Shown here: positions 5,034-62,403 of the stretch, in pieces
Layout: every line of letters starts with the position of its first letter
How positions within the stretch are numbered: the stretch's first letter is position 1
NCBI RefSeq assembly: GCF_001314605.1
Contig: NZ_LIHP01000018.1
Location: 124,001 to 188,000 of the forward strand
Source: Marinobacter sp. HL-58
GTDB lineage: Bacteria; Pseudomonadota; Gammaproteobacteria; Pseudomonadales; Oleiphilaceae
Length of the DNA: 64,000 bases
Direction: 5' to 3'
Made by a program: the position numbers and the translations under genes
Notes under the pieces: model-generated
Seen by the model: only the letters and a program-made list of their open reading frames with translations
The model's database searches: none
What the model was told of the DNA's origin: nothing

Positions 5034-5060
5034 AAAGACTACTGCACCAAAGTTCGGCCG

Positions 5061-5149
5061 AGGGGATGGGGATGCTTTTCTGGCGGGAAAAAAGGTGTCT
5101 GAGCGTAGCGAGTTCTTTTTTCCCAGAAGAAAAGTATCCCCATTCCCTC
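5061..5149 (+). repeat. Hairpin repeat, family B, copy 1
   Basis: Long imperfect inverted repeat: left arm 5061-5093, loop 5094-5115, right arm 5116-5149. The arms pair through most of their length, with two G-U type pairs and a three-base internal loop. The loop carries gtgtctgagcg[a/t]agcgag, shared with copy 2 at 19539-19625, and both copies share the loop-proximal arm halves (cttttctg.cgggaaaa and ttttcccagaagaaaag). The loop-distal parts differ between copies while still pairing. It lies between tssE and tssF, 16 bp from family A copy 1. Function is unknown. Confidence 0.7.
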
Positions 5150-5165
5150 TGACTCCGAGCAGGCA

Positions 5166-5259
5166 ATGCGGGTGGCTGCCCAAAAGACGCTCAAGCCCTC
5201 CATGGGCGCTTGGGCTCCGCCATCCATGGCTCCGCACACTTTTGGGCAGCCACCCGCAT
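5166..5259 (-). repeat. Hairpin repeat, family A, copy 1
   Basis: Perfect 21-bp inverted repeat (arms 5166-5186 and 5239-5259) around a 52-nt loop. On the minus strand the loop contains gcggagccatggatggcgga, the core shared with copies at 14491-14599 and 62299-62403. The rest of this loop diverges from the other two copies, and the stem sequence is different from theirs. It sits between tssE and tssF. No U-run follows the stem, so it is not a normal intrinsic terminator. Function is unknown. Confidence 0.75.
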
Positions 5260-5300
5260 CACCTGCTCTCATCCGTGTCTGCTTGCTACTGCCAGTGACG

Positions 5301-14490: not shown

Positions 14491-14599
14491 GACGTGAGTG
14501 GGCAGGCTCTTCCAAAACCGTGCGGAGCCATGGATGGCGGAGCCGAGCGTACAGGGACGTATTCACAGCGTGTTTTGGAAGAGCCTGCCCACTCGCGTC
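14491..14599 (+). repeat. Hairpin repeat, family A, copy 2
   Basis: Arms 14491-14518 and 14572-14599 pair over 28 bp with one G-U type pair. The 53-nt loop (14519-14571) starts with the family core gcggagccatggatggcgga and continues almost identically to copy 3 (gagcgtacaggga then gtattcacagcgt). The stem sequence is unrelated to copies 1 and 3. It lies between rpoH (3' side) and garR (5' side), both on the minus strand. Confidence 0.78.
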
Positions 14600-19477: not shown

Positions 19478-19538
19478 AAAACAAACGCAGCAAAGCCCTC
19501 GACTTGGCTTCACTGCGCTATCACAACGGTGGGATCAG

Positions 19539-19625
19539 TCTCGGGGTGGGGTGCCTTTTCTGCCGGGAAAAGGTGTCTGAGCGAAGCGAGTTCTTTTCCC
19601 AGAAGAAAAGGCACCCCACCTCGGG
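19539..19625 (+). repeat. Hairpin repeat, family B, copy 2
   Basis: Left arm 19539-19571, loop 19572-19593, right arm 19594-19625. The loop carries gtgtctgagcg[a/t]agcgag as in copy 1 at 5061-5149. The arms pair along nearly the whole length, with the same small internal loop near the loop end as copy 1. It lies between the convergent rsmD and desaturase genes, where a bidirectional transcription stop would be useful, but no clear U-run is present. Confidence 0.7.
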
Positions 19626-19651
19626 ACCAGACACCCTAACCCGCAGGCTAC

Positions 19652-62298: not shown

Positions 62299-62403
62299 GC
62301 CGGATTGTGAGGCCCGTTCAAAACCCTGCGGAGCCATGGATGGCGGAGCGGAGCGTACAGGGATGTATTCACAGCGTGTTTTGAACGGGCCTCACAATCC
62401 GGC
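62299..62403 (+). repeat. Hairpin repeat, family A, copy 3
   Basis: Perfect 26-bp inverted repeat (arms 62299-62324 and 62378-62403) around a 53-nt loop that begins with the family core gcggagccatggatggcgga after three bases and continues almost as in copy 2. Stem sequence is unrelated to copies 1 and 2. It lies between acr3 and the ars-type GAPDH gene on the same strand, so it could attenuate read-through inside the ars operon. Confidence 0.8.

Follow-up and report, generated by a model that had tools for sequence, protein, structure and literature searches.

A dispersed family of hairpins with paired ANGGAN loops in Marinobacter: candidate CsrA-binding RNA decoys

Introduction

The free level of the global regulator CsrA is held to depend mostly on a small number of sponge RNAs. 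These RNAs, CsrB and CsrC or RsmX, RsmY and RsmZ, come from few genes and carry many GGA sites each. According to the available part of a review, CsrB binds about 18 CsrA subunits, the RsmE site is an ANGGAN hexaloop, and the CsrA consensus obtained by SELEX is RUACARGGAUGU; the hairpins selected mostly had four or fewer pairs, and a CsrA dimer bridges sites that lie 10-63 nt apart (PMC7652899). Among structured RNAs, the TwoAYGGAY motif (RF01731, clan CL00106) is listed in PMC2864571. In the accessible text of PMC4333381, its external stem is described as not well conserved and its binding of CsrA as a proposal made in silico, the validation of which is called work in progress. Among repeats, REP and BIME sequences are short intergenic palindromes that occur more than 100 times per genome, often in alternating orientation, as summarized in the available portion of PMC2817692.

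We analysed a 64,000-nt stretch of Marinobacter DNA (the window), in which an earlier note had singled out three hairpins with a common core. The note gave no named family for them; however, the TwoAYGGAY motif of Rfam has the same architecture. With a probability of roughly 60%, we regard these hairpins as dispersed CsrA-binding RNA decoys of the TwoAYGGAY kind, a reading in which their transcription, the binding of CsrA and its titration are predicted from sequence and structure.

Results

Three elements in the window

The three hairpins and their parts are as follows.

5157-5268, minus strand: copy 1, whole element (arms 5239-5268 and 5157-5186, core 5187-5238)
5222-5227, minus strand: copy 1, hexaloop 1, AUGGAU
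5198-5203, minus strand: copy 1, hexaloop 2, AUGGAG
Neighbours of copy 1: a tssE-like gene (gp25 family) and a tssF gene (Pfam); element sense to both
14491-14599, plus strand: copy 2, whole element (arms 14491-14518 and 14572-14599, core 14519-14571)
14530-14535, plus strand: copy 2, hexaloop 1, AUGGAU
14553-14558, plus strand: copy 2, hexaloop 2, AGGGAC
Neighbours of copy 2: a 3-hydroxyisobutyrate-dehydrogenase-like gene and a sigma-70-family gene (Pfam); element antisense to both
62299-62403, plus strand: copy 3, whole element (arms 62299-62324 and 62378-62403, core 62325-62377)
62336-62341, plus strand: copy 3, hexaloop 1, AUGGAU
62359-62364, plus strand: copy 3, hexaloop 2, AGGGAU
Neighbours of copy 3: an SBF-family transporter gene and a gap-like gene (Pfam); element sense to both

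All three hairpins of the earlier note were thus present. Its limits held for copies 2 and 3 and had to be revised for copy 1, which is longer and lies on the minus strand. The common core, and the direct repeat GCGGAGCC in copies 1 and 2, were as it had described. The stems comprise 30 pairs in copy 1 (two of them G-U), 28 in copy 2 (one G-U) and 26 in copy 3 (all perfect). Over the spans used in that note, RNA folding z-scores were -9.1 for copy 2, -8.8 for copy 3 and -6.5 for copy 1, and for each copy 0 of 200 shuffles folded as well as the native sequence. Below, we take the dehydrogenase-like gene to be mmsB, the sigma-70-family gene to be rpoH and the SBF transporter gene to be acr3.

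A large dispersed family in one genome

The window comes from a 4.24-Mb Marinobacter genome, which was searched as 4,243,535 bases on 21 contigs. An initial DNA search yielded 44 matches, a few of which were incomplete or came from arms matching themselves. Since this repeat is conserved by structure and not by sequence, a sequence search sees mainly the loop. A covariance model, as the earlier note had suggested, was built from 44 aligned copies (R1) and matched the genome at least 147 times at E ≤ 0.001, 145 of these matches having E below 1e-11; the count is a floor, the best 150 of 1839 candidates having been scored. Stretches were taken around 144 of the 147 matches, leaving out one strong (C8:50032) and two weak ones. 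Copies were then delimited with a script that requires two ANGGAN motifs plus a stem and scores G-U and A-C alike, so that the presence of two ANGGAN motifs in 143 of the 143 copies recovered holds by construction. One of these copies (L251, minus strand) is absent from the R1 list. Conversely, two R1 matches were missed by the script: read by eye, the one in L236 is a base short in loop 2 with the GGA kept, and one in L223 has kept both loops, its outer stem having decayed. The three window copies are members of a large dispersed family, one that is unexpected in its copy number, its spread, its absence of a preferred gene context and the divergence of all of its close pairs (23 of 23).

The outer stem varies in sequence and keeps its pairing

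The outer stem is about 28 bp long, and its sequence differs among copies with the pairing kept. Among the first 44 copies, complementarity was 98% between an arm and the arm it pairs with and 56% when the partner came from a different copy, the latter because the inner part of the arm has a loose consensus, CTTTCCAAAAC. The variation of the stems noticed earlier was therefore real, but "completely" different, as it had been worded, was too strong. A stem common to most copies, or arms that usually fail to pair, had been named as observations that would speak against the pattern; we found no one common stem, and almost without exception the two arms can pair. In the 44-copy alignment, 27 of 28 outer-stem pairs had two-sided changes, and the whole structure contained 402 cells of this kind, whereas shuffling gave 103 on average and reached the observed number in 0 of 500 runs.

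The imperfect pairs were informative as to strand. Across the inner 22 pairs of the 143 copies there were 3088 Watson-Crick, 37 G-U, 3 A-C and 18 other pairs, read on the strand with the GGA loops (GGA strand), and the difference between G-U and A-C was highly significant (binomial p 2e-8). In the tssE-tssF orthologs of copy 1 (n=19) the corresponding numbers were 18 and 0, with inherited pairs shared and so not independent; in the rpoH-mmsB orthologs of copy 2 the G-U excess was not significant (5 vs 2). This excess says that the GGA strand is the single strand that folds. Since G-T beats A-C in single-stranded DNA too, the strand bias alone does not prove RNA, and it is the nature of the loops that suggests that the folded strand is RNA.

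An all-pairs comparison of the 143 copies gave 38 pairs with similar arms (identity ≥0.75), against 7.8 expected by column shuffle. In the 25 closest-arm pairs listed, the 100-bp flanks were unrelated. Similar arms in unrelated flanks hint at past copying of the element to new sites.

Two small hairpins with the features of CsrA-type sites

What had been described as the loop consists of two small adjacent hairpins with ANGGAN hexaloops. In 135 of the 143 copies each hexaloop has a closing stem of 3 bp or more, and the remaining eight have one closed loop and a second ANGGAN with weaker pairing. Within the 135, loop 1 is mostly AUGGAU (76) or AGGGAU (44), and loop 2 is AUGGAU (42), AGGGAC (40), AGGGAU (22) or AUGGAC (22); AYGGAY is found in 78 first and 68 second loops, the others being other forms of ANGGAN. 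The starts of the two loops are 23-25 nt apart in 141 of the 143 copies and 33 nt apart in two. The stem of hairpin 1 varies with compensation as well (GCC/GGC, CAAAAAC/GTTTTTG, GCATTGCC/GGCAATGC and others).

Most copies (135/143) therefore carry, as expected of CsrA/RsmE sites, two ANGGAN hexaloops closed by short stems, with starts 23-33 nt apart. Some of the small hairpins have 8-11 pairs, more than the four or fewer of most SELEX hairpins. As for the possible partner, this genome has one csrA gene, and csrA was found in 59 of 61 genus genomes with one to three genes each; the two genomes without it are 62% and 82% complete. In the mechanism that we propose, a long outer stem constrained to pair alone would hold the two small hairpins side by side, and the two ANGGAN loops would offer a two-site landing pad to one CsrA dimer. 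Any transcript that covers the GGA strand would then carry a CsrA trap, and the copies together could act as a distributed CsrA decoy.

Orthologous loci

At rpoH-mmsB, the locus of copy 2, rpoH was matched in 124 of 124 genus genomes and the best 30 loci were fetched, our own included; loci in which the script detected no element were assigned a state by eye. At 21 of the 30 loci the element is present with both loops, among them L276 with one diverged arm. A single hairpin remains at two (L290, L293), a partial element at one (L284) and an arm alone at three (L294, L299, L300). One locus is without trace of the element (L281), and in another (L289) its place after the rpoH terminator is taken by unrelated DNA, perhaps part of a group II intron; the last, on a short contig (L277), was left unclassified. 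The three arm-only rows occupy separate places in the rpoH tree, each with intact relatives nearby, which fits loss. The element is vertically inherited at this locus, and two-sided changes fill 70 cells in its 21 orthologs, whereas shuffles averaged 15 and none of 500 came as high.

At tssE-tssF, matched in 76 of 120 genomes, 19 of the 30 loci fetched were intact and measured, and seven carry just another hairpin family. L304 is at a contig end, L320 has an insertion and L325 is without the element. In L326 the stem of the element is present as a plain hairpin, with the core missing; because species with similar flanks keep the core, this is probably a deletion. Of the 30 loci fetched for the acr3-gap site, five relatives have acr3 directly before gap, and all five lack the element; in one of them (L051, ~1859-1999) the place of copy 3 is occupied by a different long hairpin, whose loop is another one.

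These states bear on one of three explanations offered in the earlier note, namely an element that inserts into the loops of existing hairpins. The rpoH-mmsB sites without a full element were partial deletions, arm remnants, unrelated DNA or free of any trace, and clear ancestral plain hairpins were found at none of the three loci; insertion into hairpins is thus not supported.

Differences in arms, core and flanks were determined by gapped alignment of 19 sequences per locus, the pairs of which are not independent; on such short stretches this measure levels off near 0.25-0.28. At both loci and in most distance classes, the outer arms differed as much as the 30-bp flank or somewhat less, and the core ~1.5-6 times less than the arms, except in the single closest rpoH pair. 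A hint from ungapped comparison that arms turn over faster than neutral was dropped, since gapped alignment puts them at or somewhat below the flanks. The orthologous elements drift vertically with compensatory changes.

A second explanation was that template switching, or hairpin-templated correction, keeps the arms symmetric without selection on RNA. This would fit the nearly perfect pairing of arms that differ among copies, and also the excess of two-sided over one-sided changes among orthologs: 789 vs 134 for tss at gene distances <0.13, a comparison that is ungapped, not independent and inflated by indels, and 74 vs 47 for rpoH. However, such a process is not needed, because the arms drift at or somewhat below the flanking rate, and it leaves the conserved loops unexplained. 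It also predicts as many G-T as A-C pairs, whereas a strand bias of 37 vs 3 was found, and uncompensated single-arm changes exist (L314, L315). We consider it highly improbable. The best supported of the three explanations is a structured RNA whose stem only needs to pair, in view of the covariation, the G-U excess, the compensation among orthologs and the two ANGGAN hexaloops.

Distribution across the genus and the class

In Marinobacter, 60 of 61 genomes have matches, the highest count being at least 63. When the best 150 candidates per genome were scored, four genomes selected for their low numbers had 3, 3, 4 and 7 copies, a further three had 89, 98 and 104, and G048 had 0. As G048 has csrA and no match to the element, and four genomes have only 3-7 copies, the Csr system does not require the element. 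Across the Gammaproteobacteria, with stricter filters and at most the best 10 matches scored per genome, the element occurs in 72 of 369 genomes (our own included) and 65 of 272 genera. Among the matches listed, a pattern scan drew 69 of 115 stretches from Marinobacter. Again among the matches listed, long stems outside this genus were seen in Halomonas, Saccharospirillum, Haliea, Aquisalimonas and Stenotrophomonas, and shorter or poorer stems in Pectobacterium, Samsonia and Yersinia similis. The short-stem Pectobacterium relative (L120:640-800) is next to a gene whose translation reads like ppsA, and a stretch 82% identical to this relative is present in 5 of 5426 E. coli genomes, four times on a plasmid and once on the chromosome.

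Genomic context

Genes were called with our own codon-usage gene caller. The intergenic placement claimed for the window copies was borne out family-wide, with 142 of the 143 copies free of an overlap of more than 35 bp with any called gene. For the single copies with both neighbours called (n=85), the orientations of the neighbours were ++ in 31, +- in 18, -+ in 16 and -- in 20. The last 20 copies are antisense to both neighbours and would have to be transcribed from their own promoter or by long read-through. Promoter-like sequences were not enriched upstream on the GGA strand: on a two-hexamer scale with a maximum of 12.5, 16 of 143 copies scored at least 9, against 13, 7 and 12 at three control positions, and the idea that the element has its own promoter was rejected. 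An intrinsic terminator consists of a GC stem followed by a T-run. As four or more T follow in just 6 of 143 copies, the elements are not intrinsic terminators.

These data can be held against the alternative that the copies are cis-regulatory modules of mRNAs, in which hairpin-bound CsrA alters the stability, processing or translation of neighbouring genes and no common sink exists. The 31 single copies between two genes on their own strand, compared with the 20 antisense to both, would agree with this, as would the fact that copies 1 and 3 have both neighbours on their own strand. Rfam classes RF01731 as Cis-reg, although the part of PMC2864571 available to us has a table that marks it "n" for cis-regulatory. 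On the other hand, all four neighbour orientations occur, the rarity of T-runs excludes a role as intrinsic terminators, and orthologous copies are present or absent beside the same genes. A cis-regulatory role for the family is, in our judgement, unlikely.

Close pairs of copies numbered 23, all divergent, with gaps of 38-207 bp; in two further pairs, 870 and 884 bp apart, the neighbours are on the same strand. A REP-like palindrome with a GTAG head was found in one orientation at most 80 bp upstream of 28 of the 143 copies, whereas six such heads in either orientation were found downstream; the genome has 105 of these palindromes. The palindrome, GTAGGTCGGATTA...TAATCCGAC, often forms an inverted pair 17-45 bp upstream of many copies and is rarely downstream. 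It lies between divergent pairs at L043, L044, L045, L194, L200, L206 and L222 and also upstream of single copies. Immediately next to the stem, weak conserved motifs were seen in the flanks across the 143 copies (GnctAcTCCgAagTacGg on the left, CannCaCCaAAgccagAa on the right), and the outer ends of the arms are not conserved in sequence. MITEs, by definition, have conserved terminal inverted repeats and a target-site duplication.

Such arrangements are reminiscent of REP/BIME arrays and raise the alternative of a mobile element that folds as single-stranded DNA on the GGA strand and is moved by a Y1/RAYT-like transposase or a recombinase, for which the GGA loops would be recognition sites. 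The strand bias would be expected here too, and the divergence of the close pairs, the upstream REP-like palindromes, the flank motifs on both sides of the stem and the E. coli plasmids with the Pectobacterium-like stretch are all compatible with it. Nevertheless, the loops and their spacing match the CsrA site, and the rpoH-mmsB copy is common to 21 of 30 fetched relatives. Moreover, some of the 105 REPs are away from the R1 matches listed, no REP head was found within the window at up to two mismatches, and copy 2 had no match at E ≤ 1e-5 in plasmid and phage collections. Movement as single-stranded DNA therefore appears to us quite unlikely as the basis of the family.

A second dispersed hairpin family, with the loop GTGTCTGAGCGNAGCGAGTT and variable outer stems, was seen at 5060-5149 and 19538-19627 of the window. 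It has 31 loop matches in the genome and no ANGGAN loops, and seven of seven neighbouring pairs within 250 bp are divergent. Its stems are less perfect (781 Watson-Crick, 37 G-U, 20 A-C and 46 other pairs in 31 copies) and its G-U excess is weaker (37 vs 20, p 0.03).

Discussion

If the family consists of CsrA-binding decoys, as we favour, then a single regulator would face an exceptionally large pool of sites to bind. With some 290 additional consensus-like sites and one csrA gene, titration in such a genome would have to be seen differently. The range of copy numbers within one genus (0; 3-7; 89-104; at least 145) makes titration testable by comparison. A further-reaching version, which we put forward tentatively and which is rather doubtful when taken as a whole, is that of a self-spreading sponge. 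Here, a hairpin RNA element would have multiplied with the CsrA of its host as partner. In several Marinobacter species it would have come to occupy around 100 places per genome or more, and it would have reached many places in other members of the class. Its hundreds of two-site decoys, in place of a few dedicated sponge genes, would set the level of free CsrA, and a copy number ranging from 0 to at least 145 would tune it.

Among the papers listed, no many-copy repeat of CsrA sites was recognised by title or opening of the abstract; PMC9788540 and PMC5864184 are about other RNAs. Matches to miRNA families in cmscan (mir-642, mir-3688 and others) were discarded: all were below the cut-offs, several occurred on both strands, and we take them as scores that any long perfect stem would probably give.

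REP and BIME sequences resemble the element in being intergenic palindromes with more than 100 copies per genome. REPs have a GTAG-type head and a conserved short palindrome. The element differs in its length of ~109 nt and its unconserved stem sequence, and the copies aligned and listed have neither such a head nor a conserved short palindrome.

The closest likeness is to TwoAYGGAY, which shares with the element a long, poorly conserved outer stem around two adjacent hairpins with ANGGAN/AYGGAY loops. By cmscan, copies align over the full RF01731 model on the same strand. At E ≤ 0.001, at least eight places in the genome match it (best 150 of 263 candidates), all eight being R1 places on the same strand. 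One of them, at 44.2 bits, is over the gathering cut-off (43 bits), which was reached by no match in the window and none in 18 non-Marinobacter loci; 14 control genomes gave no RF01731 match. In contrast to TwoAYGGAY, the loops of the element are often AGGGAY, and its copies number at least 145 in one genome, a multiplicity that does not appear in the portions of the TwoAYGGAY literature available to us. Formal membership thus fails for the window copies, but the element most likely works like TwoAYGGAY and belongs to the same family by structure.

With CsrB/CsrC and RsmX/Y/Z the element has GGA hairpin loops in common. Neither CsrB nor Rsm RNAs were among the matches listed when 13 and 20 loci of the element were scanned with Rfam. 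The sponge sRNAs sequester CsrA-family proteins, and for the element such binding is predicted; where they gather many sites in each of a few RNAs, the element would distribute them over many copies with two sites each.
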